NCBI GenBank assembly: GCA_029891345.1
Contig: CM057009.1
Coordinates: 307,994,666-308,058,665, forward strand
DNA length: 64,000 nucleotides
Direction: 5' to 3'
From: Dryococelus australis
Lineage: Eukaryota > Arthropoda > Insecta > Phasmatodea > Phasmatidae
In this document: in pieces, positions 13,119 through 60,028 of the stretch
Layout: every line of letters starts with the position of its first letter
Position numbering within the stretch: the stretch's first letter is position 1
The notes under the pieces: generated by a model
What the model was told of the DNA's origin: nothing
The model's input: only the letters and a program-made list of their open reading frames with translations
Database searches by the model: none
Position numbers and translations under genes: made by a program

Positions 13119-13375
13119 AGAGGATATTTTGAGCTCTAAAAAACAGCACACTAGTGGCCAATTTCAGAACCAATATGGTGGCCGATCGACTAATCGAACG
13201 AGAGCGACACCAGCGTTCTTAGTGGCTAAAGCAATATGGCGGCACTCCTAGTGACCAATGTCAGAAGTAATTTGGGAAACAAACTACAAACGAAAACCAA
13301 GATGGCGGCTTCCATGTAAATGGAAAACGACGATGGCGGCATCCTGTAACAGCCGAGGCAAACAAATTATGAACG

Positions 13376-13600
13376 AATGGGAGAGAAAGGAAATAAGAAG
13401 AGAGAAAGTGGGAGACAGGAGAAGGAAAGGAAGAGAAGAAAGAAAAATAAAGAAATAATGTAAAAGGGGAAAGAAGGGGAGCCCTCGGAGAGGAAGAGAG
13501 AAGGAAGATAAAGAAAACAAGAAGAGAGAAGGAAGAGAAAATATAAAGCAGAAAGAAAGAATGCAAAAGATAAAAAGTGGAAGCACTCAGAGAAAACCCC
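13376..13600 (+). repeat. Purine-rich low-complexity tract
   Basis: About 220 bases consist almost wholly of A and G (GAGAGAAAGGAAATAAGAAG and variants). The long open frames on either strand here come from this composition and should not be read as genes. Confidence 0.8.
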
Positions 13601-14252
13601 TAGAATACAAGAACATGAGAAACTGACAAACTGGTTACCAATATGGCAAGCAAACGAACGTGAGTAACAAGATGGTGGCGCACTGGCTAGTAAAATGGCG
13701 GAATACAATATGGCTGTCGCATGACCAGAATGACAGAGCAGGAAGTCTGGAATCCTACATGGCGGACAGAGCCACGAGCTGAATCATGAATCCTGACCCA
13801 GCTCTCTCTTATGCCCTACCACTTGCCCTACCAAATGTTGCCAAAGACTTTTAAAAGTAGGTTTGAATTCAAATATGATTTGTGGTGCCATCTTTGTTTT
13901 ATGCGCATAGCCAACTTATATTAATCCAGGTTTTAATATATTATTATCTTTGGCTTTATTTTGGCAAAAGAATAAACAGAGTCTTTAAGTTGTTTTAGCC
14001 AATATATTTTCTATAAATGTATTTTATAACATTTTGTGTTGGTTTTGGACCATGGAAACGATATATTACAATATGTGAATAAATTAAATGAAATCGTGGA
14101 GAATAATTCATGTGTTCTTTGTTAATTGCCAGATAAACTGAAGGTTTCGGCTCTGTTATAGTCTCCTGTTGTTTATTGTTTTTTTTTAAAGTGAATATCA
14201 GGCTAGTATCGAGCCCCTCTGCCACGTCCTTGGATAAGGCCGTAGCAATATC

Positions 14253-14771
14253 ATGCTGACGAAGATTGCGGGTACAGTAACAAAACCTACAGCAGTAATG
14301 CCATCGACTTCTTCGAGCATGGCACTGACAGTACCCGTGGTTTCTTCGTATGGGTCACTCGCAGCAGTGTCTCCATCGACTTCTTCGGATGGGTCACCTA
14401 CAGCAGTGTCGCCATCGTCTTCTTCAGGCATGGCGTCGTCGGCACCTTCGACTTCCTCATGCATGGCGTCGACAGCAGCATCGACTCCTTCGGATGGATC
14501 ACCTACTGCGTTATGATCCCTAACTTCGTCAAGGCTTCTTTGCTGTTTCTGTGTCAAGATATTTTTCTATAGCCGAAGTGGAAGGAAGCATGAAAAAACT
14601 ACTTGTGTAAACGGACATTCCTGTGCTATTAAACTATGTGACAAGTGCAAAAATGTCTTTAGATGCGGTGATAGCCTAAAGAGACATAAGAAGAACTGTA
14701 AAGTTATAGTTTCTTCATCTAAGAAACAATCTGTTCTAGCTGCTCGAAATACCACATCGAATGGTTTCTAA
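14253..14771 (+). pseudogene. Ser/Pro/Thr-rich C2HC zinc-finger protein, one in-frame stop
   Basis: A single frame runs from ATG 14,253 to TAA 14,769 with one TGA at 14,514-14,516. The first 87 codons encode a low-complexity region of repeated SSDGSPTAVSPSSSSGMAS-type units. After the stop come two C2HC fingers: CCFCVKIFFYSRSGRKHEKT with a final TC, then CDKCKNVFRCGDSLKRHKKN with its final Cys. The finger style (FxxxxxLKRHxxxC) matches the fingers upstream of PolB and those in the other elements. The opposite strand is also open across the low-complexity part, giving an acidic repeat, but the fingers in frame favour the plus strand. The function is unknown; nucleic-acid binding is likely. I judge it cargo of the surrounding element. 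Confidence 0.55.
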
Positions 14772-14779
14772 CTTAAACA

Positions 14780-16739
14780 ATCTCTATTGCAGGGAACTTA
14801 AAGAGATTATGTGATTGGGAATAACTTTGTTGGTACAAAAACATATTTAAAATCCTTGACCACATTAAGCAAAGGGTAATCTGTCAATTAACAGCATAAA
14901 TTGAAGAAGGTCCCAAAAAGTGTAATTTTAGCTGGAGTGTACCTACAAAAATCCAAAATTTTACTTGAAGCCATTAGTCCACGGACATTAAAGACTGCGA
15001 ACGTAGCATTGTACAATGATAATGACATGTAAAGAGGAAGAATATATGGCTAAGGGTTCAGTTTGGATGCTTGCCAGCATAAACAGTCTTAAGCTGCATA
15101 TAAGCAGATTACATTCACTATGTAAAAAGTAAGCATTCTGTTAAAACACTGTGTGAATAGAATGCAGAATATAAGCATTCTGCTTTTTATAATTGTAGTC
15201 TGAAGTATGTGTAAATATATATAATTTCAATGAGATTTTTTCTTTTCTCAATGATTATGTTGTGCATAGCCCTAGCATACCTCTTTCCCTGACATAGAGA
15301 ATATGTTAGACTTGGTTTTCACAAGATCTGTCACTACATATTGTTTCTGTAAGTGGTCATGATAAAAATTAAAATTATGTGTCAAGTTATAATGATTTGA
15401 AAGTTAGTACTTCAACATTTGCTGTATAGGCACATAAGTGGATGTGTTCAATCAATGATATGGTAATAAATGTGTAATTTTGAAGTTACCTATACAGAAT
15501 TTAAGAATGAATTGCCATTATAAATGCATTCTAAGCAGGTTGGATGATCCTGTTGAAGTGGTAGAAATTTGTCCATAATGTTTGGAGGGGAGGGCGAAGG
15601 CTTAAGTTGGGCCTGACGAGCCCTGCTTCAATGCGGTATATGGTGGAGAGTGGTCCTATATAAATATCTGCATGACTGCTGTTGGTCTAATACACCACAG
15701 TTATTTTCCTAGCAAATGTAAAACTAAATGAATGATTTCAAAGTTTAAAGGCCGAGGCCATATTGCATAATCAAAGATTGCAGAAGTGATGTAACCCAAG
15801 ATAGTGGCTTGAGGGGTAATCAGCAGCCTACTAAATCGATTTGGAATAGCAGAACATGAATACAATGTAAGACGGTGGGTAGTGCACAGGTGACTAATAG
15901 TGGTGACAAAATTAAGAATGAATTACAGATAGTGAAAGGAATGTTACTAAGAAAAAACGAAATAAAAATGGAGAACATGGATTGACAGAGAAAGAGAATA
16001 TTTGTTTTGTCAGCTCGCCTGGTGGCTAAATCGATAAACCATCACCACTTAGGCAATGGAAAGAGAATTCAATATGTCAGGCGCAGACAGCACCTCATAT
16101 ATCTTGAATAAATGTACACAAATATGGCTGCCACGTGATGGCTAATCGATAGCTTTCCTGCTGATGAAATCGAAAATTAATACATCAGTGCTACTCAGGT
16201 GATAAAAACGTAAACAAATGTTAAAATAATAAAACATTATGGCTGGTAAAATGTATTCGACAGAATGAGTACGTTCGAGGGGGGTGGAGACCAGCCGACT
16301 AATTAATCAATGAGAAGCATTGGTAGCGGAGGGAAATGTTATGTCATTGTGATCGATTTTAGGAGGGTCAGTCGTCTGCTGGACATGGTGCTGGGGAACC
16401 TCGGGAAATGTAAGTTCTTAATATATAATATTTTTTAATAAATCTTTATTAATTTTTAAATAAATTCTTAGAAATTTTTCGGAATTTTTTGGCGACTATT
16501 TGTTTTCGAGGTCAAAGATCACTAGGTTAAGACCAAAGGTCAACGTCACCTGGATCCAAGATTGCTGGAGTAGTCAGAAAGATAATATGCTTTCTGACTT
16601 TTATATATTTAATGAAATTTTACCATTTTACTCGGGTTTCAGTTTTAATGGTCATCGAAGGTAATTGTTATAAGGTATATATCATGGGTGAAGGCCAAGG
16701 TCACCTGGGTTCAACATGGCGGTTGGCTGACGTCAAAAC
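14780..16739. other. Non-coding interior and right arm of the 13-17 kb element
   Basis: No gene is recognised. The first kilobase is unique AT-rich DNA. From about 16,240 the sequence matches the right arms of the sibling elements (GGAAATGTAAGTTCTTAA near 16,400, and long A/T runs). A possible pol III A-box-like segment (GCCTGGTGGCTAAATCGA near 16,018) lacks a B box. Confidence 0.4.
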
Positions 16740-17397
16740 ATGGTGGCTGGTCGATTCCAGTCCCTCGTCACTCTAAGCCCAAACATTAAACATTTAAATT
16801 TTAAATTTTTTTTAAATATATTCTTTAATAATTGTTATAAATATTTGGGGATTTCTAGAACGTTTAATAATATTATAAGGTTTTTAAATTTTTTTATATT
16901 TTTTGGGATTTTTCATAATTTTTTTGTTTTTGTTATCATTCAGATCACGTGGTCAGAGTCAAGGTCACGTGCATCCAATATGATGACTAATATGGCTGAC
17001 AGAACCAGTATGACAGATGGATAGTTCTGACTGTAAACCCTGGACCCTTTGTATCGATTTGGCATACTCTGCGCCTGTAAAACCAATATGTTCGCCCCTG
17101 CTCTGCCGTTGAGAAGCGAGCCTTCCAAAATCACCTGAATTTGCTGAAAATAGCCTTTCTGCACCTCGTTTTTGCAACTGAGATGTAAGCTTTTTTGAGG
17201 GAAAAACGGGTTGGCTATTTATTAGGGAAGGAAAGGAAATTTTGAGGGAAAAAGGGAAGTTATGAGGTAAATTTGGTTGATTTTAAGGGGAAATGTAAAT
17301 TTGTAAGGAAAAATAGACTCCTGACGACCGGAATAACAGAGCAGGAACTGCTCGGAACTCCGACGCCAGAAGGCAAAGCCTTAAAGTTATCCAAATC

Positions 17398-17522
<125 letters not shown>

Positions 17523-17855
17523 TGTAGTATGAAATAGTACGTTCAAGCAAAAGACGAGCGGAGATATGAGTGCAGAAACTGGCCGCCGCCATCTTGTTAT
17601 ACATATATTCTTGTACATAACTATGTACAAAGTAATTTGAAGTAAATATACATTTCCATACTTATATGTAGTACATGACTATGTATAAATTAAATTGAAA
17701 ATAATTATATATGTACATGACTCTATATTAAATTAAAAAGAAAATAATTTTACATTTACATATTTATATACCTATACTTATTTATAGAACTATACGTCAT
17801 TATGTATAGTCCTATCACATATATAGTAGGACTTGCACGTTTCCTTCCGGGGCGA

Positions 17856-19400
17856 ATGAGTACTTGGGTTTTCTCGGAGTGCTCCCACACAGCGAAGCTA
17901 AATTGCAAATATGAAGGTCTGTCTTTTGACTTCAATGATCATGGAGCCATGAACCTGCATCATCACTAACTAGTTGCTGCCAGTGCAGAGTCTGCAATCG
18001 AGTTTTCACCAAAGTATAAATAAGTGCCTTAATGCATTTTCATTTCAGTATCATTCTGGACTTGGAATAGTACAGACATAAAATGTCAATGATGCATCTG
18101 CTATGCCGCTTCTGCGGTAAAGTATTTACTGCTTTACGGAATTTACGACAACACGAAATAACAACCTGCAAAATGGAAACTTCGCATGTGACATTTGAAT
18201 GAATGTGACACTTGTAGCATTGGTTGTCTGCAACTACAGTCGGCTCCACCTCCGCCTCCGCAATCAACTCCGCCTCCGCAATCAGCTCCGCCTCGGCAAT
18301 CAGCTCCACAGTTAACACCGCATGCTCCGCCTTCGCCTCCACATGCCCCAGAAGATTGCAGGGGTAACATACAGATCGCCAAGCAAGATGTTACTCTACC
18401 CATACACATTCATGCTGAAGATGAAGCTATCTCCCACGAATCGCGACATGGAAGCCTATTTCCGAATAGTGTGCGCTGCATCATCGCGGGACCATCGGGT
18501 TGTGGCAAGAAATGCGTCCTACTGAACCTGCTGGAAAAATAGAACGGCCTTTGTTTCGAGAATATGTACATATACTCCAAATTACTTCAGCAACCGAAAT
18601 ATCAGCGACTGGCACGATTACTGCAAGCTGTGGATGGCGTGGGTTATTTCCCATGCAGCTATAACGAAGCCGTCGTATCTTTTGCAAACATATTCGTGCT
18701 ATTTCGCATGGACGATATGAATTTACGTCACGTTTACGATAATCATGTTAATACGGACATGCCTCTATCAGATTTTAAAGATACGTGTACCTTGTGCTGG
18801 AAAGATAAATATGGATTTTTGACTATTGTTAAGGACTGTCTGCTACATAGGGGAAGGTACAGGCGTGGGTTCGATCAGTTCATCGCTGTCTGTAGAGAGG
18901 GTTCGTCTTCTGGGAACCAGCAGGTGATGCCATCAATACCTTCTGCTACATCTATGGGTACCGTTTCCGCAGACGATAATGACGCCACAGTTATTGCTGA
19001 AGTCGGAATGAGTGCAGTGCAGTCAGTTTGTGCTGAAGGTACACTTGCAAGATGTTCGTTTGAAGTCTAAAAACTTCAAAATAAATGGCCATCAGCTCTA
19101 AATACTGATGAACATACAACTCCTGCTACACAGAAAAGTAAACTTGATATTCGGGATGCAGCAGGAAGTGAAGAAGATCATAAAGACAGCATTAATGATG
19201 ACTATGACGATAATAATAGTGTTGAAGACGATGATTATTCCCTCGATGCTCCCACACATTTCCTCAACGAGTTTTCTTCGACAAGTGATGTGAAGATGGT
19301 AGAAGACATCGAGTATACTGGCGATATGTTTACCGAAGATCCCAAAAAGCGTGTAAAAAGACTTAAATATTTGCTTGATAGGCAACAACGTGGGGATTAA
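17856..19400 (+). pseudogene. Chimeric gene: zinc-finger leader, captured packaging ATPase, acidic tail
   Basis: A leader frame starts at ATG 17,856 (STWVFSECSHTAKLNCKYE) and, in a shifted frame, ends with the first half of a finger (CRVCNRVFTKV) at about 18,015. Then comes a Polinton ATPase gene with its own TATA/Inr and finger (ATG 18,083; CRFCGKVFTALRNLRQHEIT and TC). From 18,195 one frame runs to TAA 19,398 with only two stops (TAG 18,540, TAA 19,068): a Pro-rich linker, Walker A-like GPSGCGKK (Thr replaced by Lys), YSKLLQQPKYQ, LFRMDDMNLRHVYDNHVNTD, WKDKYGF and GRYRRGFDQF. An in-frame loss of about 55 codons removes Walker B. After about 18,885 the frame continues with GNQQVMPSIPSATSMGT and an acidic tail shared with the gene at 48.2-48.9 kb. 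Not functional as an ATPase. Confidence 0.7.
18015..18049 (+). promoter_or_regulatory. TATA box and TCAGT initiator of the captured ATPase gene
   Basis: A perfect TATAAATA at 18,015-18,022 is followed by TTTCAGTATCATT with the initiator A at 18,047, 32 bases from the TATA start. The same pair occurs before the other ATPase gene (8,339-8,376). This conserved spacing argues for a promoter rather than a splice site. It marks the upstream junction of the captured segment. Confidence 0.55.
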
Positions 19401-19734
19401 TCGACCATGAAAGAGGTGGTTTCGATAATAAGAGCACTTAAATTAGGGTTATATCAGATAATACGATAAAGTGCTTTCTTCTGAAAATGTAGGAGTATTT
19501 ACAAAATAATAATAAATTATTATTATTATAAAATTTTTTCGTTTTCTTTAATTGTTGTGTGTTGTATTCTCCTTTTGGCATTTAAGTTTTTAATTACAAC
19601 AATATGTATTTAAATTATTTAATAAATTAGGCGTGTAGTCAAAGTCATGCATCATGCACGTTGCTATATTAGTAATAGGAAGAAAAAATTATTTTTTTAA
19701 TAGGGTGGAAAATTGCAATATTCGTCCCCTACTA

Positions 19735-20130
19735 AGATAGTGGTCGCCTATCAGGATGACAGCCTCCAGTAATGTATAAACAAATGACAAACGAAAAAAC
19801 CAATATGGCAGTCCCCAGTAATATATAAACAAAAATGGGTGCTTCCAGTAATGTATAAACAAATGATGAACGAAAATACCAATATGGCCGCCTCCAGTAC
19901 CATATACACAAAGACGGTGGCCTGCAGTAACATATAAACAAATATGGCTGCCCTAGTAGCATGTAAACATAGATGGTAGTCGAGCGAATGCGAGAATCAA
20001 TCTGCAGTAACATGAAAACAAATTAATTAAAAAATTAAGATGGTGGAATGAGTATATGTGAGAGGAGTGGATGTGAGACAGTCAGTCGTCTGCTGGATTA
20101 GAACAGAAGTGAGTAATTTTTGGTGCGGGG
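19735..20130 (+). repeat. Degenerate tandem units in the right arm (TGTATAAACAAATGACAAACG type)
   Basis: Six to eight units of roughly 45-60 bases combine CCAGTAATGTATAAACAAA with CAATATGGCNGCC. The same units occur in inverted orientation near 55,310-55,440 and singly near 59,235. They contain repeated AxxATGGCxGC motifs. Confidence 0.65.
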
Positions 20131-20655
20131 GGGGGGGGACAACTCCGGAAATGTAAATTTTTTAATTAAAATTTTTTAAAGCAATTTTTAATAAACTTTT
20201 TGAAAGGAAATTGTTAGGGTAAAAGGGAAATATTTAGGGCGAAAAGGGAAAAATAACCGCAGGGATTAAAGAATTTTAAAATTTTTTTTAAAAATGTTTA
20301 TTGAATAAAATGTTTTAAGGGAAATTTTGAGGGGAAAAAAGGAAAATTTCGAGGGAAAAAAGTGAAAAAAGTGATACTGGGGTTAAAAAAGTTTTAATTT
20401 AGAAATGTTTTAAGTAAAATTGTATATAAATAAAATAAATTAAATTTTTTACTAATAGAATTTTTATTAGGTTTTAAAACGATTTTTAAATTTTTTAAAC
20501 TATTTGATATTAAGTTCTTCATAATAATTTTTTTTTAGAATTTTTTCGAATATTTTTTTTTTAATGTTTTGATTTTTGGGTCAAAGGTCAAATATCATAG
20601 GTCCTGCTCTCCTGACACCTGGGTCACTGATCCGGTCTCCTGTCTGGCTCGGAGA

Positions 20656-20853
20656 CGCTGATCCCCCTCGCCGTAGTCACTGATCCCCCTCGCTGTAGTC
20701 ACTGACCCCCCTCGCCGTAGTCACTGATCCCCCTCGCCATAGTCACTGATGCACCTCGCCGTAGTCACTGATCTCCCTCGCCATAGTCACTGATCCCCCT
20801 CACCGTAGTCACTGATCGCCCTCGCCGTAGTCACTGATCCCTCTCCCCTCATC
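20656..20853 (+). repeat. 22-bp minisatellite, about nine units
   Basis: Units built on CACTGATCCCCCTCGCCG followed by TAGT repeat nine times with single-base variants. The array lies inside the right arm of the 17.5-kb element. Related sentences (ACTGATCCC, GACCCAGG) occur once or twice in the arms of the 54.5-kb element, so the array expanded locally. Confidence 0.85.
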
Positions 20854-21069
20854 TAGGAAAAATGGAAATTTTTGAGGGAAACACGGGAAATTTTGAGGAG
20901 AAAAGGTAATTTTAAATGTATTTTGATCAATTTTGAGGGAGAAAGTATAATTTTAAAGGAAAAAAGGAAAAAAAAAATGGCGGACGGTGACGTAACATGA
21001 TGGCAGTGGCTAGCTCCTGCGCTGATATCCCCCTTCCCCTTGTGCTTGAACATACTATTTCCTACTACT

Positions 21070-21110: not shown

Positions 21111-23399
21111 ATACGTATTCAAATCTTAGGGCAAAAATACATTAGGAAGCGTGCCATCCGTTTTGATCAGGAAATATGCGAATTTTCATTTATCGTAACA
21201 GATTTTGAGTTTAATGATTTTAATGCAATCATGACGGTGAGCATGGTTCGTTCAGAATATAGTGTGAAATTTACTTAAGGCTACATGCGATCGTTGTTGA
21301 TCATGTAAAAATTTTATTTTACCGAATGATGATCAAACTTAAGCAGCATAATCGTTTAGGCAAAGAAAATATCTGAGAGGAAACGAGGCAACTCTCACAC
21401 ACATTTTTTTTATTAATGTACTAAGTTTAATTGCAATTGAATGTATTATTAAAAGGTAATTAGCGTGCACAGTCAACATCGCGATGCTTTCTCGCAATAA
21501 TGCTCAAGATGTCGGTTGTTTGTCTATTGCGCATCAAATTATTGTAACACAACAATGATGGAAAAAACTGATATATTTTAAACGTAGCGTGATCTGAAAG
21601 GATATTAAAAATATGTTGTTCTATATTTGAAACATTGCTACTGACAGATGCGTCGTAACCATAAAGTGAGACTCGGGGTGACTATAATGACATGTCGACA
21701 TTATAGTCACCCCGAGTCTCACTTTATGGTATTTACCGCAATATATGTGGATACATACACTACGGATTAATATTTCTACACACGTGCACTGAGAAGTTTG
21801 CACTTTCCATAGTTTATATAAATACAGATGACCGGCTTTTATAAAATGTTGCTTCGTGATCGTTGATGGTGGCGTCATAATCGTAGGAAATGTTATTACA
21901 ATCTGTTCGGAGATTTAAAAGCTACAGTGCGGGACATATACAGATAGGCATTCACACGATTTCATACACCTGTCTTTCCCAGAAAAGTAGGCTGAAAATA
22001 AACCAGCTTTCCTGAAGCGTACAGACAGCGGTTTCTGAGAACTGGAATCCAATACGGTTGCTCTATTGAACGGCCAAGTTCTACGAAACTTTTAAAAAGG
22101 AAAAAAAAAATCGGCCTGTCGTTGTCATGGACAAGGCCATGAGTTCTACGTGAACATGTTGACGTTAGCTGGCAATATTGTCTCGACGAAACGGGAATGA
22201 AAAGACTGTAATAAAATGGATATTTGACTTTCGAGGCTTATATCGTCAAACGTAGACTAGATAGTTTGTTAAGCACCAGAATCAGCCCGCTGGCACATCG
22301 GGGTAGTGAATACACGGCCAGGAATTTTGACCTCACAACCGAAATCGTTCCCAAGTCGCTGCGCACTCCCACTTGCGCCTCGCATTGTAAAGTCGTACGC
22401 CCGATCGAACGGGACCGCATCTATTTCAATTGTGTTGCGAGTCAATAAAGTTGTTGTGTCGGGATCGATTACCCGGCGAACGGTACGTCGCCATTCCCGC
22501 CCGGGCACCACGTGCGTCGGTCCGACCGTTACGACGTATTCACGTCAAAACTTGAGCATCCGTGCGTCATTACAGTTGTTCGTCACGATTGTAAACATTA
22601 TTAACATGTTGCTCGTCTTGACTATAAACATTAATGCATTTCGAAAAAGCTCATTCACACCGCATTTTGATGTTAATGCATTCATTTTAATTCCTTATCA
22701 ATTATGTACATCATTGGTTAAGGTTCCATCTTAGATTAGGTTTATTTTTGAAAACTTATTTAGTATTTTTAAGTTTATAAAAGCTGATCTTAATACTGAA
22801 GATTTCTTCTCGCGTAACAGTTACTGATGACTATAATAATGCCTTTATATGCAGACTTGGTTTATATTATTGTAGTTTCCGACATATTATGAAGTAATTG
22901 AGATTTATTTTATGTGGTTTGTAAGGACACTTGTGAAATGTCATAATTACACAAATATATATTGAAAGAATGAAATATTACTGCACAACAACCGGATCTG
23001 TTCTTATTAATTCTAAATTGATATTCTCCTTGGGTTCCACTGTTTGCCAATTAATTTTCATTTTCTTTGTGTATATGTACAACAGCCCACTGTTTCCAAT
23101 TCCATAGTTCTTATAGTCTTCTTACGGTCTAAATTCTTAAGTCGCATATAGTTACAATGTGTAATGAACTGTATGTTTAAATTACAAAAGGTTTTGTTTG
23201 TTGACTGTAGCCAATGTGTGTAAAAAATTTGTCTTCGCAAAGCCAGTTAACACGAATTACACAGTTGACAGTGCAGAGGGATGGAAGTCATTTTGTGTGA
23301 AGGTCGTGTAGTGAACAATTTACAAGCTGTTGCAGGCAGATAATGGTTCCATACGTGATGGAACAATATAACATCAATTATTATTCCACGTAAAGCAAT
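21111..23399. other. Spacer between elements, with a CpG-rich islet at about 22,270-22,570
   Basis: Apart from the hairpin at 21.7 kb this is mostly AT-rich single-copy-looking DNA. Bases 22,270-22,570 stand out for many CpG dinucleotides (for example CGGCGAACGGTACGTCGCC) against a CpG-poor surround. Frames on both strands stay open across it (plus 22,306-22,734, minus 22,269-22,511), but I recognise neither protein. It could be an old exon, a promoter, or a fragment of a young insertion. Confidence 0.4.
21658..21730. repeat. Perfect inverted repeat: 32-bp arms, 9-base spacer
   Basis: Bases 21,658-21,689 (starting ACCATAAAGTGAGACTCGGG) are the exact reverse complement of 21,699-21,730. The spacer is ACATGTCGA. 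No poly-T, target duplication or flanking symmetry is seen. Transcribed, it would fold into a perfect 32-bp hairpin with a 9-base loop. Confidence 0.95.
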
Positions 23400-23405
23400 C
23401 TCAAG
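23400..23405. repeat. 6-bp target site duplication (left), ctcaag
   Basis: The identical hexamer occurs at 45,060-45,065, immediately after the other end of the palindromic element. Six bases is the duplication length known for Polintons. Confidence 0.75.
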
Positions 23406-23864: not shown

Positions 23865-25745
23865 CAAGTATGACCTATGTACACATATAAGCATAGTTGG
23901 CTGTAATTTATGAACTGCATGAGAAACAACTACAAGAATCATTACATAGGCATCGCCCCCGACAACGAAAAGGAGCGAGTGGTCAAGATCGACCTAAGCC
24001 TACTTATAACCATAGTTGGCGGTATATTCCGAACTGTTTAAGGTACAATTAGCAAATTAATAAAATAGACATTACCGCCGACAACTAAAAGGTTCGAGGG
24101 GTCAAGTATGTCCTAAGCGCACTGTCTCTGGCCAAGCATAATCCCAGAGTACATATAAGCATAGTTGGATGTAGTTTCCGAACCACTAAGATATAGTTGT
24201 CAAATTCATAACACAGGCATCACCCCCGACGATGAGAAGGGTAGCAAAGTCAAGTATAATCTATTTATACTTATAAGCATAGTTGGCCGTAATTTCCGAA
24301 CTGCTTACAGTAAGTTATAGTTGTCAAATTTATAACACACACATGAACCCCAATGACAAAAAGGGTCGAAAAGTCAAGTATACCCTATGTCTACTTATAA
24401 ACATAGTTGCCTGTAATTTCCGAACCATTTGAGATATAGTTGCTGAAGTCATAACATAGGCATCAGCAGCGACAAAGAGAATGGTTGCAGGGCCAAGTAT
24501 TAACTATGTCTACTTATAAGCATAGTTTTTTGTAATTTCCTAACCGTTTGAGAAACAACCACCAAAATCATAACATAGACAACATCCCAGACAACAAAAG
24601 CGAGTAAGGGGTTAAGTATGACATATGTATGCTTATAAGCATAGTTTGCTGTAAGTTCTGAACCATCTGATATACAACTACCAAATTTGTAACACAGGCA
24701 TCACCCTAGGCAATGTTAAGGAGCCAGGGGTCAAGTATTACTAATGCCTACTTATAAGCATAGTTGGCAGTAATATCCGAACCAGTTATGATATAGTGCA
24801 CAAAATCACAAGATAGGAAACACCCCAAACAACAAAAAGGAGTGAGGGGTCACATATGACCTATGTCTACTTATGAGCATAGTTGTCGATTATTGATAAA
24901 CCATTTGAGATATAGTTGCCAAAGGCATAATATTGGCATCTTCCACGACAAAGAGAAGGGTCACAGGGACAAGTATAACATATGTCTACTTATAAGAATA
25001 GTTGGCTGAAAGTTCCGAACCATTTAAGATCTCAGTGGCCAAAATCACAACATAGACATCACCCAGACAAGGAAAATAATCTAGGAGTCAAGTATGATAT
25101 ATGACTACTTATAAGCATAGATGTCTGTAGTTTACCAACTGTTATGCAACTACCAAAAATTTGTATGATAGACATCACCCCAGACAACAAAAAGGAGAGA
25201 GGGGTCAGTATGTTGTAAGTGCGCTGCCTCTGACCAAACATGACCCAAGAGTACATATAAGCATAGTTGAATATTAACTTCCCGAACTCTATAAGATACA
25301 ACTACCATAATTATAACTAGCGAAAGGCAAACATCATGCTCTGTCATTCTGATGGCAAGGATTTCCCCCGAGTGCTCCCACCTACAATTTGTTCCCAGCA
25401 AAAAGTACACCCTGTCAATCCTATTGTCCAAATCCCCACGACGAAGCCCTAGCCCTAAATCCCTGCTATAAAGCCCTAACATAGACATCGCCCGTGACAG
25501 TAAAAAAGACCAAAGTGTCAAGTATTGCCTAAGTACAATCATAAGCATAGTTGATTGTAAGTTTCTAACCATTTGAGATACCACTACCAAAATCATAAGA
25601 TAGGCATCACCCCAAAACAAAAAGGATCAAGGGGTCAAGTATGTCCTAAGTGCACTTATAAGCATAGTTGGTTTTAATTTCTGAATAGTTTGAGATACAA
25701 CTACCAAAGTCATAACATAGGCATCCTCCCAGACAGTGAAAAGAG
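23865..25745 (+). repeat. About fourteen tandem ~120-bp units in the left arm
   Basis: Each unit contains CTTATAAGCATAGTTGGCTG, a TTTCCGAACC phrase, GAGATATAGTTGCCAAA, CATAACATAGGCATCACCCC and GGGGTCAAGTATGACCTA. Unit starts are spaced about 115-145 bp apart (near 23,890, 24,008, 24,147, 24,270 and so on). A non-repeat island interrupts at 25,330-25,480. The mirror array is at 42,800-44,640. Confidence 0.85.
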
Positions 25746-27611: not shown

Positions 27612-27612
<1 letters not shown>

Positions 27613-27659: not shown

Positions 27660-27663
<4 letters not shown>

Positions 27664-41210: not shown

Positions 41211-41212
<2 letters not shown>

Positions 41213-41281
<69 letters not shown>

Positions 41282-45059: not shown

Positions 45060-45065
45060 CTCAAG
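45060..45065. repeat. 6-bp target site duplication (right), ctcaag
   Basis: Identical to 23,400-23,405 and directly adjacent to the end of the palindromic element. Confidence 0.75.
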
Positions 45066-48947: not shown

Positions 48948-49269
48948 ATCACTAGTTAACTAAAGGAACAAGGATATGTCGCATAGTGTAATTAACTGCT
49001 TTCTTCTGAAATTGTATATACGAAATTATAATAAATAATTATAAAACAATTGTTCTTCTTAATTCTTGTGTGTCGTATCCTTTTTATACCTCACAACTTT
49101 AAAGTGGTTCTATGAGTACTCGACTATTAATGGAAATATCTTCATGTAGAATGATAGTAAAGACTTTAGTATAAAAATGCATGATTTGTTGATTGTATAC
49201 TAAGCATTGATTCTGTTGACATGTACAAATTTTGAAAACAATTTGGTGAATATTTTTTGTAATATGTAT

Positions 49270-50065
49270 GGATAAGGACAGGCGATAAACCCATGGATTG
49301 AATATGGATCGATGATTGTGGCGCTGATTGCAAAAGATTGATGAAGAGATTGCGATTGTGGATGTGATTGTAGTGCTGATTGCGATAGATCGATGGAAAT
49401 ATTGAAAGATTGATGGGAGATTGAAAGATTATGGATGTTATTGTGGAGCTGAATGCGAAAGATTGATGGAAATATTGAAAGATTGTGGAGCTGATTGCAG
49501 GAAATATTGATGGAATGATTACGATTGTGGAGCTGTTTGTGAAGATGACTGCGATTTATTGATGGAAAGATTGCAATTTTGGAGTTGACTGCGTTGTTGA
49601 TTGCAAAAGGTCGAAAGATTCATGGAAATATTGAAATATTGTGATGCGGACTACGAAATATTGATGGAAGGGTTGCGATTATGGAGCTCATTGAAAAGGT
49701 TTGATGGAAATATTGCTATTATGGAACTGATTGGGGAGATTATTGCGAATGAATTATGAGAATATTGTGATTGTGGAGCTGCTTGTGGTGCTGAATGCGA
49801 AAGATTGAAAGATTGATTGAAACATTGTGGAGCTGATTGCGAAAGATTTATAGAAAGTTTGCTACTGTAGAGCTGATTGCGAAAGATTGATGGAACGATT
49901 GTGATTGTAGAGCTGATTGCATAAGATTAATGGAAACATTGAGATTGTGGAGTAGATTGCAGTGCTGATTTGCGAAAGACTGATGAAAATATTGCGAAGG
50001 ATTGATGGTGAGAGCGAAAGATTGATGGGGAAATTGAAAAATTGATGGGGAAATTGAAAGATTGA
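49270..50065 (+). repeat. Right copy of the GATTGATGGAAATATTGAAAG minisatellite
   Basis: Roughly twenty-five degenerate units combine GATTGCGAAAGATTGATGGA with ATTGTGGAGCTG. The array is mirrored, shorter, at 47,400-47,640. The same motif occurs once in each arm of the 54.5-kb element (near 56,770 and 57,965). Confidence 0.8.
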
Positions 50066-51634
50066 TAAAAAAACAAGTCTGTCATTTTGATTTTTGATTT
50101 TTTTAATTTATTCGAATTGTTTAGGTTTTTTAATTTATGGGGTCAGAGTTAGAAGGTCACAGGTCTATGGTCACGGTCACATGGACCCAAGATGGTGGTA
50201 GTAGTCAGTAATCTAATATGCTCAGTAATCTAATATGCTCGCTGGCTTTTCATGAATTTATTCAAATTGTAAAATTTTTTCTCAAGTTTTTAATTTCAAG
50301 GACATCCAAGCTCATGGTTATAGGGTCACAATCTGGGGTCAAGTTCAAGCCTGGGTCCAACATACTTATTGGGTGACATAATAGCATGGCGGCTGGTCGG
50401 TTCCAGACCATCGTCATATCTATGCCCAAACATTTAAAATTTAAATTTTGTAATTTTTAAAATAATTTTTTAGTAATTTTTGGATTTTTTTTAGAATTCA
50501 TAATAATTTTTTATCAGTTTTTTCAGTTTTATAATTTTTTAAAGTTTTTGAGATTTTTAAAATTATTTTGTGTTCTAGGCCATTTGAGCTCATGGGGTCA
50601 TGGTCAAGGTCACCTGAATCCAATATGGCTTAAGTAGTGTGTAAATGTAATATGCTTGCTGACTTTAATGAATTTATTCAATATTTACCATTTTTCTAGA
50701 GTTTTTCTTTTCAAGGTCATCTTAGGTCACGAATAATGGGTCTGAGTTCCCAGTGCTGAGTTCTGAGTCCCGAGTCCTAAGTCCTCACAAGCCCTCAAAA
50801 GTTCCCAATAGACTGTTTTTTGCAAAAAAGAAACTTGATTCTTCTTGAAGGAAAGAAAAAAATTGTTGAGGGAAAAACTGGAAATTTTTAGGGAAAAAGG
50901 AAATTGCGAGGGGACTAAGGGAAATTTTTAGGGGAAAATGGCCACGGGAATGGAATTCTTAAATAATATATTTATAAATTTTAATAATTTTAAAATAAAT
51001 TTTAAGGTTTTTTTTTTAATTTTTGGGTTTTTAATTTTTTAAAAATATTATTGGGAATAATATCACATGGATCCAAGATGGTGGCCGGGTGATGTTACAA
51101 CATGGAGGCCGGTCGGCACCTGGCTCTTACTCCCGGAATCCATTGTCCGAGTCTTCTCAATTTCCTACTACTTATATCACCTTTTACGGCTGTATTTCAT
51201 GTCTGTTACAGGTTGTATACCAGCGTCCCTACTTGGCAATTCATAATTCGGTTTCGGATCATTGGGCGCACCATGAGGCCGTTATTGGCATAGAATTTCC
51301 ATGAAGCCAGAAACGATATCACAATTTGTATTACATTTCACTGAGTTTGAAATTCATTCAAATGGCTCTAAGGAAAAGCAATCTCAAAAAATATTTATAT
51401 ATCTATCTTTTAAATTCTGCTTGATAATGTTCTCCCTCTTTATGAAGAAATAAATACGAGCAATTTATAATATGTTTCTACAATCAACATATTTTAGTTT
51501 ACATGCATTTTGTTATAAAGGGAAATGTTAATGATTTAACCTATTCAACGAGAGTTAACACTGGTGCTTGAGATTTTTTATTTTGTACGTGGGACATGAC
51601 TTTGTAAGTTAACAAATAATTACATGTTGCAATT

Positions 51635-53511
51635 TGTTACATATTCGACATATCAAGCGAGGCCAGGCATGGTTGTAATGCGGCCAACGATTGCTTTATA
51701 AACTATAATCGCAGGCAACGGGAACAGTGTTAGAACTGTGAAAAATAGAGCAATCTACAGAAGCGAGCAGAAAATTTGGGTCAGTCTGAAACAGTAGGGT
51801 TGCTGCAATTCCATCAGCAATCACGTCAGTAAATCAGCCCAGGCTACTAGGTAAAGCCAATGGGAGTTGAGGATTTCGGTGAAGGTGGGCATAAACAAGA
51901 AGTGGTTGGTCCTGACAGCTGTGGGCTGGAGAGTCAGTCGACGGTGGTCCACTGACGTCAGCTGTCACCAAGTGGGGATTGGGGGTGAGTTCCGTCCCGC
52001 TAGGGTGAGAGAGCTAGTCCTTACCCTTTAACCTCATAAATGTGACTGATATCCATTCCCTTCATAAACCAAACCTCTTCTAATAACATCACTTCTGCGA
52101 GTACTGTTGTATTAGAGTCAGTAAAGATAACCTGTATTTATTAATTGGTTACATTTAATCGATCTATGATTTCTAATTCATGATAAACTGTAATTGTGCT
52201 CAAGTGTTTATGTACCACATAGGGGGTATATAACAGTGGCGGCGGCTTGTTTCCACCCTGCCCTCTTGCCGCATAGTAGTAGCTACTCTTCCATTCAACT
52301 CTCCCCCCTTATAATGCAATTACAATAAAATCCCCTCCCACCTCTACCATATACCAAAGCGGGTAAAATCACCTTACCTAATGCCTTGCTCTCAAACCCC
52401 ATTTTATTGAGGCTTTATTATTAAAATAGTTGTTTAAAGGGAATAACTGCTTTTGTATTATAATTCTGTATGCAGACACTATCCCAATGATCACTTATAC
52501 ATGCAGTATAAATACACAGAATTGTTTCAAAACATATTAAATAATTGAATAAATTAATAAGCATGTATCAGTTTAATGGAGGGAGTGACAACACATTAAA
52601 ACAGTAAAATTTAAAAAAATTGATTGGCCTTTTAACAGCTAGTTCGATAAAAACCCAACAAAAGCAGAACACAGAACACGTCAAATGCAACTAGGATACA
52701 GTACAAAAATAACAGCACTATTCAAAAAGTAATGTTATGTTTGCGACATATAAAGCGAGGCCAGGCAAGGCTGTAATGCGGCCAACCTTTTTTTTTTAAA
52801 ACAATTATTGCAGACAATGGGGACAGTGTAGCAATGGCAGAAAGTACAGCGATCCACAGAAGCTAGCAGAAAATTTTGATCTGGCTGACACAGTAGTGTT
52901 GCGGCAACTCCATCAGCAAGCATGTCAGAAACTCCGCCCAGGCTATTAGGGAGAGCCAATGGGAGTTGAGGATTTCTGTGAAGGTGGGCGTGAATGATAA
53001 GTGAGGTGGTCATGACAGCTGTGGTCCGGAGAATCAGTAGGCGGCGGTCCACCGAGGTCAGCGGTCACCGAGTGGGGATTGAGGGTGAGTTCCATCCTGA
53101 TAAGGGGAGAGTTCCATCCTGATAAGGGGAGAGTTCCATCCTGATAAGGGGAGAGTTCCGTCCTGATAAGGGGAGAGTTCCATCCTGATAAGGGGAGAGT
53201 TCCGTCCTGATAAGGGGAGAGTTCCATCCTGATAAGGGGAGAGTTCCATCCTGATAAGGGGAGAGTTCCATCCTGATAAGGGGAGAGAGCTGTTCCGTAA
53301 CCCTTAACCTTATCCATCATACTGATAGCAATTCCCTTCATAAACGAAACCTCTTCTAATCACATCACATTTGCTTGTACTGTTGTATTAGAGTCAGTAA
53401 AGACCACCTATATTTGCTAATTGGAGATATTTCATTGATCTGTTATTTCTACATCCTGATCAACCTTAATTGTGCCCAAGTGTTTATGTAACACATAGGT
53501 TGTATATAACA
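51635..53511. mobile_element. TRIM-like unit: two direct terminal repeats around 0.5 kb
   Basis: Two direct copies (51,635-52,235 and 52,733-53,511) both begin TGTTA, end TAACA and share GCGAGGCCAGGC, AATGCGGCCAAC, AGCCAATGGGAGTTGAGGAT and GTATTAGAGTCAGTAAAGA. Starting TG and ending CA with short inverted ends is LTR-like, and the 497-bp interior is too short for genes, as in TRIMs. The interior starts G-TGGCGGCGGC, a possible primer site. Against this, I see no clear polypurine tract and no matching 5-bp flanks (CAATT and AAACA), so a simple tandem duplication remains possible. Confidence 0.45.
53087..53284 (+). repeat. 22-bp minisatellite, nine units, inside the second terminal repeat
   Basis: Nine nearly identical units contain GTTCCATCCTGATAAGGGG with single CAT/CGT variants. 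The first terminal repeat has only one related unit (near 51,990), so expansion happened after the two copies separated. Confidence 0.95.
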
Positions 53512-53939
53512 AAACATTTGAAAATAAAACAAATACTTGAAGAAAGTCATTTAGTGGTGCCAATGTATTATTTTCATAGCTTGAAAAGACACCAGATCAC
53601 AGTGGACAGTTTTTTCAAAAGTAGAAATAAAATGTGCTGGTTTTCTATTTAACATTTTACTAGCTGCCACTTCATGTGTGGGGTTAACATATACTACGAT
53701 CCATATTCTTATCTTCGGACACACCGTGCCTCCTGATTGCTAGTACATTAGGCACTAGCATGTAAATGTAATATTTCATGTCATATCTCATAGCGGTTGG
53801 CACACCGGCTCGTTCACCAATCCTTTCAGAAGCTAATATATTAAAAATTATGGCATCAAGTCTGGTGTAATATCCACTTTAGTGAATTTCGTACCACAGC
53901 TTATTATTTCTGCAAATATGATAATTTTTATCTAAGTTT

Positions 53940-54290: not shown

Positions 54291-55439
54291 TTACTCTAAT
54301 TCTCTAATTGGTGTCTTGAAACTATGATGATACAGTGACATGTATGGCCCTTAGTGGCACATCCACGCAATCAAACTACATTAAACGCAAATGGGACACA
54401 TGTCAGGCCATGATGACACTATGTGTCAAACCTCGTTTAGTTCATTGTGATCAATTTTTTTTTCAAATTAGTGAATACTATTTTTTTCATTTGACACAGC
54501 TTTCTAGTAGTAGGAAAATGGGCAGTTGGGAACAAGGGGATCGGGTATAGGATTAGGTTTCAGGGGAGCCGCCCTCTTGTTATATTACCCGACCGCCATC
54601 TTGGATGTCATTGACATTTTATCCCTGACCCATGTAACCTTTTACATTGACCTAAACCTTCACCCCGAGGATTTTTGACATAAAAAAACACTAGACAAAA
54701 CCTTTAAAAATTTAAAAAAAAATCCTCTCAAATTAAAAAAAAAATACTATTAAAATAATTAGAAAATTGTAAAAAAATTAATTAAAAAATTATTTAAAAG
54801 ATCCTTGGAAATGACCCATTCTTTCAGAAATACTGACTAGGATCAGCGACCCAGGGTCAGACCCAGGTGACCAGGAGACAGGAAATAGTACATATGACCT
54901 TTGACCTTTGACCTTTAAAATGCAAAAATCAATAACATAAAAAATCCCAAAAAATTAAAAAATCTATTTAAATCTGTATAAAAAAAATTTGTTATTAAAG
55001 TTTTAATGTGAATCGTTTTAAATATATAAAAATCAATTTTAAAAATTAAAACATAGTTTAAAAATTTATTTTTATAATATTTTATTTGTTAAATTTGTTT
55101 ATTAAAAAGTCTATAACCCCGGCGGCCATTTTTCCCTTTTTCACCTCAAAATTTTGCTTTTTTCCTAAAAAAAATTTCCCTTAAAAAATTTAATTAAAAA
55201 CTTACATTTCCCAGCGCCGCCATTAGTCACATTCATTCCATCCCCAGCAGACGACTGACTCCCTCGCACCTACGCCCTCACCTATACTCATTCCGCTATC
55301 TTAATTTTTTTCATTTGTCATTTGTTTATACATTACTTGAGACCACCATCTTTGTTTATATGTTACAGGAGGCTGCATTTTTTGTTCGTATTAGTTCGTC
55401 ATTTTTAATACATTATTGGAGGCCACCATATTGGTAGGC

Positions 55440-56250
55440 AAACACCATCTTGGAGGCATCACCCACCCACCATATTGGAAACCAATGACTTTGACCTTGA
55501 CCCCATGACCTAGGAAACAAAAACTATTGAAAAATGCATATATTTCAACAAGCATAATACCTTAAAGACTACCACTGCCATATTAGATGAATAATAACTC
55601 GATCTTGACCCCGTGATCTTGAATAAACTTGAAAACAAAAACTCGATAAAATACATTTAAAAGTCAGCAGTCATAATACATTAAGAACTATCACCACCAT
55701 ATTAAATGCAGACTACCTCGACCCCACAACCTTGGATGACCTTGAAAACAAAAACTTGAGAAAAATTCACAAAAAATCAGCAAGCATAATACATTAAAGA
55801 ATAACACCGCCATATTATATGCAGATTACCTTTCGACCTTGACCACATGACCTTGAATGACCTTTAAAATCAAAACTCTTTAAAAAAACATAAAAGTCAG
55901 CAAGCATAATACATTACACACTACGAGCGCCATATTAAATGCAGACTACGATGACCTTTACACCATAACCTTGAACGACCTGGAAAACCATAATTCAAGA
56001 AAATATACATAAAAATCAATAAGCATAATACATAAAAGACTGCCACCGCCATATTAGATGGAGACTACCTCGATCTTGACCGCATGACTTTGAATTACCT
56101 TGAAAATAAAAAATATAAAAATGCATATACATCAAAAAGCATAATACATTACAGACACCCACCACATTATTAGATACAGACTACCTTAGCCTTAACCCCG
56201 TAACCTTGAATGACCTATAAAACAAAAAACTCGAGAAAAATCTATGTAAA
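55440..56250 (-). repeat. Tandem ~110-120-bp units in the left arm
   Basis: About seven units contain ACCGCCATATTAGATGCAGA, CTACCTCGACCTTGACC, CATGACCTTGAATGACCTTG and AGCATAATACATTA. The inverted partner in the right arm (58,800-59,200) has only about four units. Confidence 0.8.
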
Positions 56251-56636
56251 GAGGCAGGAGATAGTCGAGACGATCCACCTTCGGCGTAGCTGCTGTCACA
56301 CTAAACCTCTCCGCTTACCTCCCTACTGCTAACAATATACAAGTGTGAAAGCCCTATGGCAGCATATTGACTTTGAACCAATTTTACTGCACCATTTATA
56401 CATTGTACAGACACCATCCAGCCAATCACCAAGTTACATCATGGTTGCAGCTGACCAATCACATGCAGGCATTGAGACATCACACACACACGCATGCAGG
56501 TAGGCAGGCATAAGATGCTAGTTTCTTGATCACGTTACCATCCAGTTATATCTTAAACAGTTTCATCCAGGCGAGTTTTACTCTCTCGCCTATAAATCAT
56601 TGTTACACTTAAAGTAGACAACTTACCACATCGACC

Positions 56637-57049
56637 TCATTTGCCCATTGACCCCATATTGTCCCATGCCCCATTAACCCATGATAACACCTGATTGCGG
56701 TGGCCGCGGCAGTGGTGATGATTGCTAAAGATTGAGATTAGGATTGGGATGTGTTGCATCTGTGTGGGTTGTGAGGTTGATGGAAAGATTGCGGTTGCGA
56801 CTGATGGAAAGACTGACTCCAGCAAAACTAAACCCACGAAAAGGGTTCTTTTGTACAAACCATTCTCTCATGCCAGCATGCATTTCTTGAACGTAAGTGA
56901 AAACTCGATTGCAGAATACCAACTAGCAACAACCAGTTAGCGGTGATGCAGGTCGAGGCTCCGTGATCGTCGAAGTCAAAAGACAACACTCCATATTCGC
57001 AATTCATCTTCGTGATATTGGAGCACTCTGAGAAAAACCAAATACTCAT
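56637..57049 (-). pseudogene. Zinc-finger leader ORF, left-arm copy
   Basis: From ATG 57,049 the frame reads SIWFFSECSNITKMNCEYGV and SFDFDDHGASTCITANWLL, homologous to the leader at 17,856. It then shows one finger spread over two frames (FCNRVFTYVQEMHA and CWHERMVCTKEPF). Downstream the frame runs into Asn/Pro-rich sequence from the CAATCTTTCCATCAA repeat, so the acidic tail seen in sibling genes is missing. It points away from the centre of the palindrome and mirrors the copy at 57,713. Confidence 0.5.
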
Positions 57050-57059
57050 TCGCCCTTGA

Positions 57060-57700
57060 AGAAAACATGCAGGTACTATTATTTATAATTATATATATAC
57101 GATAGGAATATAACACATTTATAATTATATCAATATGTAAATATACAATAACTTTCAATTAATTTTATACATAATTATGTATTGGCATATGTAAATAACT
57201 ATGTATTTGTATAGGCATATAAGTATGTAAATAAAAAAATTATTTTCAATTTAATTTATATAAATAGTTATGAAGCTATAACTAAGTAAATATAAAATTA
57301 ATTTCAATTTACTTTATATCTGTAGTTATACGTATACAAGTATGAATATATAAAGTTATTTTCTATTTATTTTATACAAAAGTATGTACATATAAATAAA
57401 TTTATTAAAATGTCTGTATATAGGTATTATACATATAAATATGGATATATAAAATTGATTTAAATGTATGTATATGTATGTACATATAAATATGGAAATA
57501 TAAAATTTATTTTAATACCTATATAAAAGTGTACATATAAATATGGAAATATAAAATTTAATTGTAAATCTACATATAAGTATGTACATAAAATATGGGT
57601 ATATAAAATAAATTTAAATATCTATACTTAAATATGTACATATAAATACGAAATTATAGAAATAATTAAACTGTCCGGTGTTATAGTTCCTGCATGTTTT
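57060..57700. repeat. AT-rich centre of the palindrome with ~53-bp tandem units
   Basis: Units of TGTACATATAAATATGGAAA with TATAAAATTTATTTTAA repeat about eight times. Similar sequence lies just inside the left arm of the 17.5-kb element (17,620-17,830). It separates two outward-facing leader ORFs, so any promoter for them would lie here. Confidence 0.7.
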
Positions 57701-57712
57701 CTTTTGGAGCGA

Positions 57713-57960
57713 ATGTGTATTTGGGTTTTCTCAGAGTGCTCCAATACCATGAAGATGAATTGCAAATATAAACTGCCATCTTTTGACCTCGACGATCATA
57801 GAGCTTCTACCTGCATCACAGCTAACTGGTTGCTGTTAGTTAATATTCTGCGATAGATTTTTTACTTATGTTCAAGAAATGTATGCTTGCACGAGAAAAC
57901 AGTTAGTACAAAAGAGCCCTTTTTGTGTGTTAAGTCTGCTGGAGTCAGTCTTTCCATCAG
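57713..57960 (+). pseudogene. Zinc-finger leader ORF, right-arm copy
   Basis: From ATG 57,713 the frame reads CIWVFSECSNTMKMNCKYKL and FDLDDHRASTCITANWLL before a TAG near 57,853. The finger remains only in pieces (MLARENS in another frame). It is the diverged mirror of 56,637-57,049. Confidence 0.45.
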
Positions 57961-58022
57961 TCGCAATTGCAATCTTTCCATCAACCTCACAACCCACACA
58001 GATGCAACACATCCCAATCCTA

Positions 58023-58112
58023 ATCTCAATCTTTAGCAATCACCACCACTGCCGCCTCCACCGCCGTCGCCACCATCATATCCGCCACCGACGCCGACGC
58101 CGCTACCGCCAC
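58023..58112 (+). repeat. CCN/CCG trinucleotide-rich tract
   Basis: Runs such as CCGCCTCCACCGCCGTCGCC occupy about 90 bases. The left-arm partner (near 56,695) has only a short version, so this expanded in one arm. Confidence 0.7.
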
Positions 58113-58139
58113 CGTAATCAGGTGTTATTATGGGTTAAT

Positions 58140-58400
58140 TGGTCATGGGACAATATGTGGTCGATGGGGTCAATGAGTCAATGGGGTCGATGTGGTCAAT
58201 GGGGTCGATGGGGTCAATATCTTCGATGGGGCTAATAGGGTCGACAGGGTCAATGGAGCCGATGAGGTCAATCGGGTCGATGGAGTAGATGTGGTCAATA
58301 TGGTCAATGGGGTCAATTAGTAATGGGGTCAATGGGTCATGGGGTCGGTGGTGTCGATGGGTAAATAGGTCAATGGGTCATTTTGTGAAGGGGTCAGTCC
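58140..58400 (+). repeat. GGGGTCAAT / GGGGTCGAT minisatellite, right arm only
   Basis: About 25 units of a 9-base phrase alternate GGTCAATGG and GGTCGATGG. The left arm has only three to four related phrases (near 56,645-56,690). The open frame here that reads as Ile-Asp-Pro repeats is a by-product. Confidence 0.8.
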
Positions 58401-58799
58401 GACAATTGGAGTCAGTTGTCTACTTTAAGTGTAACCATGATTTATGGGTGAGAGAAGAAAACGCGTCTGGAGGAAACTGTTTAAGATATATCTGCATGGC
58501 AATGAGATAAAGGAACTAGCATCTAAAGCCTGCCTGCCTGCCTGTGTGTGTGGGATGTCTCAATGCCTGCATGTGATTGGTCAGCTGCAATCATAAGGTA
58601 ACTTGGTGATTGGCTGGTCGGTGTCTGTACAATGTATAAATGGTGCAGTAAAATTGGTTCAAAGTCAATATGATGCCATAGGGATTGTACACTTGTACAT
58701 TGTAAGCAGTAGGGAGGTACGCAGAGATGTTTCGTGTGACAGCAGCTCTGCCGAAGTTGGATCGTCTCGACTAGCTTCTACCTTTTCACATAGATTTTT

Positions 58800-59200
58800 C
58801 TCGAGATTTTTGTTTTTATGTCATTCAAGGTCACGAGGTTAAAGCCAAGGTACTTTGTATCATATAAGGTGGTTATAGTCTGTAATGTACTATGGTTGTT
58901 CACTTTTATGTATTTTTCTAAGTTTTTATTTTCAAGGTAATTCAAGGTCATGGGGTCAATGTCGAGGTAGTCTGCGTTTAATATGGCAGTGGTAGTCTTT
59001 AATGTATTATGCTTGCTGACTTTTATGTATTTTTCTCAAGTTTTGATTTTAAAGGTCATTCGTGGTCACGGTGACAAGGTCGTGGTTCTCTGCATCTAAT
59101 ATGGCGGTGGTTATCTGTAATGTATTATGGTTGCTGACTTTTATGTATTTTTCTAGATTTTTTGTTTTCAAGGTAATGGGTTCAAGGTCATTGGTTTCCA
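58800..59200 (+). repeat. Tandem ~110-120-bp units in the right arm
   Basis: About four units contain TTTCAAGGTCATTCAAGGTC-like phrases, TCTGCATCTAATATGGCGGT and AATGTATTATGCTTGCTGAC. Each unit carries an AAGGTCA half-site and an AATATGGCGG motif. Confidence 0.8.
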
Positions 59201-60028
59201 ATATGGCGGATGGGTGATGCCTACCACGATGGTGGCCTCCAATAACGTATAAACAAATGACAAAGGAAAAAATCCAGAGAGCGTAATGCGTATAGGTGAG
59301 GGGAGTGGACGCGAGGGAGTCAGTCGCCTGCTGGGGATGGAATGAATGTGGCTTATTGCGGTACTCGGAAATGTAAGTTTTTAATTGAATTTTAAAAGGG
59401 AAAATATTTCGGGAAAAGGAGAAAATGGCCGCCGGGGTTAAAGTCTTATTAATTAAGTAGTTTTTAAATTTAAATAAAACAATAATTTTTAACGGTTATT
59501 TAAAATGATCTTTAAATTAAATTCTTTAATAACAATTTTTTATAAATTTTTTCATTGATTTTTAATTTGTTTTATTATTTTTTTATTTTTCGGGTTTTTG
59601 GGTTTTCAAGGTCAGAGGTCAAATTTCACGGTCAAATGTCATAGATACTGATCCCTGTCTCCTGATCACATGGGTCTGACCCTGGATCGCTGATCCCTGT
59701 CAGTATTTCTGGAATAATGGGTAATTTCTGAGGAATTATTTGAAATATTTTTTAATTAATTTTTTTATAATTTTAACAATGCATTTTTTGGAATTTTTTT
59801 AGAATATTTTAGAATATTTTGGAATTTTTTTAAAGATTTCTTAGTGTTTTTGACGTCCAAATTCCTCGGGGTCAAGGTTAAGTTTAAGGTCAATGGCCCA
59901 CACGCGTCAGGGGTAAAAGTTCAATGACATCCAAAATGGCGGTCGGGTGTCGTAACATAATGGAGGCTCCCCCGAAACCTAATCCTATCCCTATTTCCTT
60001 GTGACCAATTGCCCATTTTCCTACTACT

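Follow-up and report, generated by a model that had tools for sequence, protein, structure and literature searches.

The 64,000-bp stretch of the Dryococelus australis genome analysed here (the window; C17:307,994,666–308,058,665) contains four elements, designated A, B, C and D, and the right part of a neighbouring Polinton, designated P; L030 and L031 denote sequence upstream of the window. Together with further copies found in the genome, of which 3,415,067,245 bases in 646 contigs were searched, the four elements are very probably non-autonomous Polinton/Maverick derivatives with Foldback-like expanded inverted repeats. The genes of the window are short broken open reading frames (ORFs). 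Positions refer to the window unless a contig or an upstream piece is named, and features lie on the forward strand unless the reverse strand is stated.

Architecture of elements A to D

Element A (17,523–21,069; 3,547 bp) is bounded by 76-bp terminal inverted repeats (TIRs) and contains, in this order, a C2HC-type zinc finger, a Polinton ATPase relic and a tail. The finger (18,071–18,199) matches the ATPase-linked finger of P at 51% over 37 aa. The ATPase relic (18,354–18,884), in which Walker A is present, was recognized from its homologues and from its DNA identity to P: 14 homologues were found at E ≤ 0.001, 10 of them with precomputed PF04665, and the DNA aligns with the ATPase of P across 741 bp (68% identity) and 202 bp (72% identity). 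A stop interrupts the frame just before 18,543 and, compared with 12 intact homologues, the stretch holding the FVFDD motif, which we take to be Walker B, has gone. The tail (18,898–19,570) is common to element C, with 69.5% identity over 683 bp to 48,414–49,081.

Element B (23,406–45,059; 21,654 bp) has outer arms at approximately 23.5–33.8 and 38.3–45.0 kb, which enclose a finger/PolB-like centre. This centre consists of a finger array and a PolB-like N-terminal relic (34,527–37,291, reverse strand; the relic itself at 35,301–35,732). The relic resembles the PolB region of P (34.6% over 81 aa, E 3.8e-9) and shares 61–67% amino acid identity with two other genomic copies, while no protein-database homologue was detected (two candidates, none at E ≤ 0.001). 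The finger matched zf-C2H2_4 at E 0.009, below the Pfam cut-offs. Tandem repeats of approximately 119 bp were present in both arms of B (24,150–25,133 and 43,917–44,192).

Element C (46,331–51,172; 4,842 bp) has palindromic arms around a finger-gene remnant joined to the tail of A's gene, with the ATPase part missing (48,149–48,944); its finger is degenerate. Element D (54,506–60,028; 5,523 bp) is a nearly complete palindrome. Both of its halves match A, in the region upstream of the finger and in the right arm, so that D looks as though this part of A were present twice in opposite orientations. No readable finger was found in D, where the similarity to A's finger region is confined to what precedes the finger, and the packaging ATPase is absent from both C and D. 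The arms of D hold tandem units of 118–119 bp (55,505–56,241 and 58,823–59,177).

The share of each element that lies in the symmetric inverted band rises from 4% in A through 38% in B and 81% in C to 96% in D. The right arm is common to A and D, whereas the left repeat of A measures only 76 bp. Given this short TIR and the 4% coverage, A was rejected as a palindrome. Thus, the long inverted arms that the first-pass annotation had ascribed to all four elements were confirmed for B, C and D, and A has the 76-bp TIR only. The C2HC finger genes ascribed to all of them are readable in A and B, degenerate in C and not readable in D.

Ends, target duplications and copies elsewhere in the genome

The related inverted ends noted at 17.5, 23.4, 46.3 and 54.5 kb were borne out by the alignment of the 10 ends of A–D and P, in which 8–10 of the 10 agreed with AGTAGTA at each of positions 1–7, and positions 2, 3, 7 and 12 were invariant. 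For the genome search, 601 bases of the left arm of B were used as the query, and a loose first look gave 2,396 candidate sites, the best 40 of which were scored and 32 predicted termini fetched. A terminus was counted when the motif lay within 45 bp of its predicted place (the motif of L012, at 73 bp, was a miss), and 200 shuffles served as the control. AGTAGTA was exact at 11 of the 32 predicted termini, compared with a shuffle mean of 0.15 (maximum 2), and allowing one mismatch raised the count to 23, compared with a mean of 2.8 (maximum 7). Chance was therefore rejected as the source of the shared ends, and AGTAGTA-like ends also mark genuine boundaries of elements in other parts of the genome. 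One match to the end pattern in IMG/VR (L001) was attributed to chance, nothing related being found around it.

According to PMC8097293 (citing Kapitonov and Jurka 2006), (AGT)2//(ACT)2 is the motif in which vertebrate Mavericks end most often, and it occurs there with perfect 6-bp duplications. The ends of A–D and P and the genomic termini counted above carry the Polinton end motif, (AGT)2//(ACT)2 or (AG)3//(CT)3, as given in that paper. The first-pass annotation knew no described family with the combination of features seen here; ends of this type, however, have been published for Mavericks and are already known.

Both ends were located for eight elements (A, B, C, D, P and those at C3, C11 and C1:278), and perfect 6-bp duplications were found in four of the eight. 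Element B is flanked by CTCAAG on both sides (23,400–23,405 and 45,060–45,065), the C11 element (approximately 11.9 kb) by GATATT, the C3 element (approximately 13.2 kb) by GTTATG and the C1:278 element (5,301 bp, with inverted arms) by GACAGG. The flanks of D, CTTTCT (54,500–54,505) and CTTTAT (60,029–60,034), agree at five of six positions. For one pair of flanks, the chance probability of a 6/6 match is 0.0003, and that of at least 5/6 is 0.006. The flanks of A agree at four of six positions within a TG/TA microsatellite (TGTGTG/TATATG), and those of C (TTTGTG/TATATC, no matching duplication) and P (TGCAGC/TGCCCT) agree at three of six. The C3 element has B-like arms, yet its first 19 bases are common with the end of D; the B-type and D-type ends therefore form one system.

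Nine AGT-ended genomic copies were read 20 kb inward, and four of them were checked for partner ends to 23 kb. Polinton-type gene pieces were found in four of the nine and none in the other five: a PolB-like piece at each of C13:46 and C17:249, a broken ATPase copy near the C1:68 terminus, and, close to the C4:228 terminus, an integrase piece recognized from a single match of 61 aa. The C13:46 copy had one weak partner-end candidate at 22.3 kb. Two partner ends with one mismatch each, at 7.5 and 15.4 kb from the C1:103 copy, were judged to be chance because their inner sequence failed to match (6 of 20).

Polinton P and its surroundings

The window opens with the right part of P (1–13,823), which was delimited by TIR pairing and by a paralogous empty site, its left part lying upstream of the window. 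The whole of P occupies C17:307,979,374–308,008,488 (approximately 29.1 kb, with a second Polinton nested inside it) and its ends are AGTAGTAGGGCAT and AGTGGTAGGGCAT. The right TIR (11,789–13,823, reverse strand; approximately 2 kb, ending in AGTGGTAGGGCAT) is approximately 75% identical to the left TIR, as seen in the inverted similarity between L031:4708–6960 and window positions 13,823–11,789. The earlier placing of a P terminus at 13,023, where TATACTACT occurs, was rejected, since the inverted similarity of the two sides of P runs on to 13,823; the motif lies inside the TIR of P, the true right end of which is 13,823. The flanks of P are joined without P at L031:1–621 (87% and 83% identity to L031:4483–4706 and window positions 13,833–14,248). 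This site, 4 kb upstream of P, is an unoccupied paralogous copy of the P insertion site, and the repeat that adjoins P on the right (13,833–14,248) has its neighbour copy there at L031:239–621. The first-pass annotation had proposed comparing the ends with those of Polintons of the same genome. This comparison, made on P as the single Polinton, showed the same ends, and the idea was not refuted; moreover, the arm of A is 77% identical to the terminal repeat of P over 84 bp (E 3e-9).

The genes of P in the window are a PolB-like gene in pieces with N-terminal C2HC-type fingers (49–1382, reverse strand; ORFs 49–408, 371–733 and 744–1382), an adenain-like protease gene (PRO; 7292–7753, reverse strand), a broken gene for a finger and a packaging ATPase of the Pox_A32 type (8413–9450), and integrase pieces (10,867–11,590; rve in Pfam at E 0.042, IS481 transposase at E 0.03). 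The PolB-like gene is presumably such, judging by its sequence motifs, and its finger matched Pfam zf-C2HC_2 at E 0.017, below the Pfam cut-offs. The protease was recognized from its homologues, from Peptidase_C5 and from the conserved H, D and C columns (11 homologues at E ≤ 0.001, the best 6.8e-27), and its predicted structure had a pLDDT of 81.9. The nearest named relatives were from a psyllid for the protease of P and from a beetle for the ATPase; scans of IMG/VR with the P protease and with an ATPase alignment gave no relatives. Compared with A–D, the adenain-like protease was found only in P, and no integrase was seen in A, C or D.

A second Polinton-like gene set, with PolB-like ORFs, an ATPase and a protease, was observed inside P at L030:253–6269 (C17:307,984,918–307,990,934). 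It has approximately 30% protein identity to P and seems to have been inserted into the PolB-like gene of P. The right TIR of P also contains a tRNA-like stretch (13,048–13,125) with what we take to be A- and B-box-like motifs, and a related stretch is present in the left TIR (L031, approximately 5600–5700); ARAGORN detected no tRNA, and the Rfam search gave no match.

A fifth element had been proposed at approximately 13–17 kb. A finger ORF (14,517–14,768; 36% over 53 aa to the P PolB-finger ORF, E 6e-7) and an arm fragment related to C by sequence comparison (16,464–16,982) were indeed found there. With the right end of P at 13,823, however, the start of the proposed element is P's own terminal repeat, and no ends of a remnant were found at 13–17 kb; this region is a mixture of the P TIR, the repeated flank and a remnant. 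Elsewhere between the elements, a near-perfect short palindrome with arms of approximately 30 bp lies between A and B (approximately 21,659–21,731), and a direct repeat of unrelated sequence lies between C and D (51,699–52,308 and 52,738–53,596), the second copy of which holds a 22-bp tandem array (53,083–53,287).

Probable origin of the elements and comparison with known systems

The ratio of non-synonymous to synonymous substitution rates (dN/dS) was 0.16–1.08 over 12 meaningful pairs of gene pieces, the pair L048a/L048b, which compares different gene parts, being left out. The values were 0.16–0.52 for the ATPase, 0.51–0.77 for the PolB-like N-terminus, 0.29–0.64 for the fingers, 0.52–1.08 for the acidic part of B and 0.83 for the tail (A/C). 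The compared pieces of A, B and C are open by choice, as stop-to-stop ORFs, with the rest of the genes in other frames or missing, and stops occur in the compared pieces of P, L041, L045, L048 and L049. Thus, the range of dN/dS indicates no strong constraint on the cargo. These data fit cargo genes that were once constrained in parent elements and are now decaying, a past function being possible, and the zinc fingers look like the N-termini of PolB-like and ATPase genes, in decay with them.

The bodies of A–D descend, as their homology shows, from Polintons stripped of most genes. What remains is the broken finger-ATPase gene in A, the finger remnant and tail in C, the region upstream of the finger in D and the PolB-like N-terminal relic in B. 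The terminal (AGT)2 has been kept, as the observed ends and duplications show, and insertion was probably the work of an integrase supplied in trans by a Polinton, which would leave the 6-bp duplications. The first-pass annotation had described non-autonomous satellites mobilized by Polinton enzymes; the relationship to Polintons is supported by the ends, the 6-bp duplications and the ATPase relic of A, while mobilization in trans is what we infer. The palindromic arms would represent terminal and subterminal repeats expanded in the Foldback/Galileo fashion, probably because one end was copied over the opposite one, either by gene conversion or by template switching in protein-primed replication; such copying could turn an A-like element into D. 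The arms of B are diverged (identity mostly 65–83%) inside a perfect duplication, and therefore probably predate the insertion. Galileo provides a precedent for the expansion of inverted repeats, and PMC3573991 mentions such expansion in Polintons likewise.

Several observations weigh against this derivation. PolB was not recognized by Pfam, PHROGs or NCBIfam, and solved structures gave no polymerase; the Pfam match of the P protease is marginal (Peptidase_C5, E 0.043), as are the domain matches of the P integrase pieces (E 0.03–0.04), and no intact autonomous element is shown. When the flanking hexamers were compared, a clean duplication was missing at A, C and P itself. Eight of the nine copies read inward, all but C1:278, had no confident partner end within 20 kb (23 kb for four copies), and the gene pieces found inward may therefore be in longer, nested or neighbouring elements. 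Finally, the arm-copying step is suggested by anatomy alone.

That the elements are instead of the Foldback/Galileo or Mutator type, moved by another transposase and carrying captured fragments of Polinton genes, is unlikely. PMC3573991 describes, for Galileo, long and internally repetitive inverted arms with tandem repeats, deletion derivatives and unmatched duplications, all in likeness to the elements here; Galileo differs, however, in its ends and in its 7-bp duplications, compared with 6 bp here. A–D end in the Polinton motif, as P does. Neither a P-type nor any other transposase was seen among the ORFs in a partial Pfam scan, and no search was aimed specifically at P-type or cut-and-paste transposases. 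If ordinary Polintons had turned into palindromes only once inserted, through ectopic exchange or a local inverted duplication in the chromosome, chimeric copies without matching duplications would be expected, as in A, C and P. However, both B and the C1:278 element are palindromes enclosed by perfect duplications, with arms 66–83% identical, and we regard this origin as highly improbable.

The recurrence of finger-type sequences in P, the 14.5-kb remnant, A, B and, in degenerate form, C, and the B-like PolB-N/finger genes of the two other copies (with the identity and dN/dS given above), would suit the satellite-virus-like system suggested by the first-pass annotation, in which a functional C2HC finger protein is the defining cargo. 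Against this, the genes are broken, D has no readable finger, dN/dS reaches 0.83 in the A/C tail and approximately 0.5–1.1 in the acidic part of B, no strong constraint is apparent, and the fingers belong to the parental ATPase and PolB-like genes; the suggestion is therefore not supported and is very unlikely. It is also improbable that the palindromes are defective-interfering genomes, in which protein-primed end-to-end copying made ends-only minigenomes and a B-like truncated PolB-N finger protein acted against a helper Polinton.

The derivation of A–D from Polintons thus remains the reading that we prefer. Polintons have mostly been studied as large gene-bearing elements, and this genome seems rich in short, gene-poor, (AGT)2-ended derivatives. 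A genome-wide count, if made, would inform on the minimal needs of Polinton movement and provide material on the growth of inverted repeats. No description of gene-poor palindromic Polinton derivatives was found in the open-access literature, and unnamed entries in repeat libraries may exist; a family of this kind was not found in print.

Miniature inverted-repeat transposable elements (MITEs) are shorter than approximately 600 bp, Helitrons have neither TIRs nor target duplications, and the Foldback duplication is 9 bp, unlike the 6 bp observed here. A–D are 3.5–21.7 kb in length, which rules out MITEs, and their TIRs and 6-bp duplications rule out Helitrons. Ginger elements possess the same integrase type, and A and B both open on the left with TGT, but PMC2836005 gives TGTNR ends and 4-bp duplications for Ginger, compared with AGTAGTA and 6 bp here. 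The Polinton-like viruses of cryptophytes share TIRs, 6-bp duplications with an rve integrase and large expansions; in contrast, PMC12220804 describes them as gene-bearing genomes and does not use the term ‘non-autonomous’. The closest likeness in kind is to the Polintons/Mavericks as portrayed for vertebrates in PMC8097293, with which the elements share ends, 6-bp duplications and TIRs, and P shares the ATPase, protease and integrase pieces. They differ from these in that most genes are deleted from A–D and that C2HC fingers precede the ATPase and PolB-like genes, and their arms reach approximately 10 kb, compared with TIRs of 46–1,447 bp reported there for intact vertebrate Mavericks.

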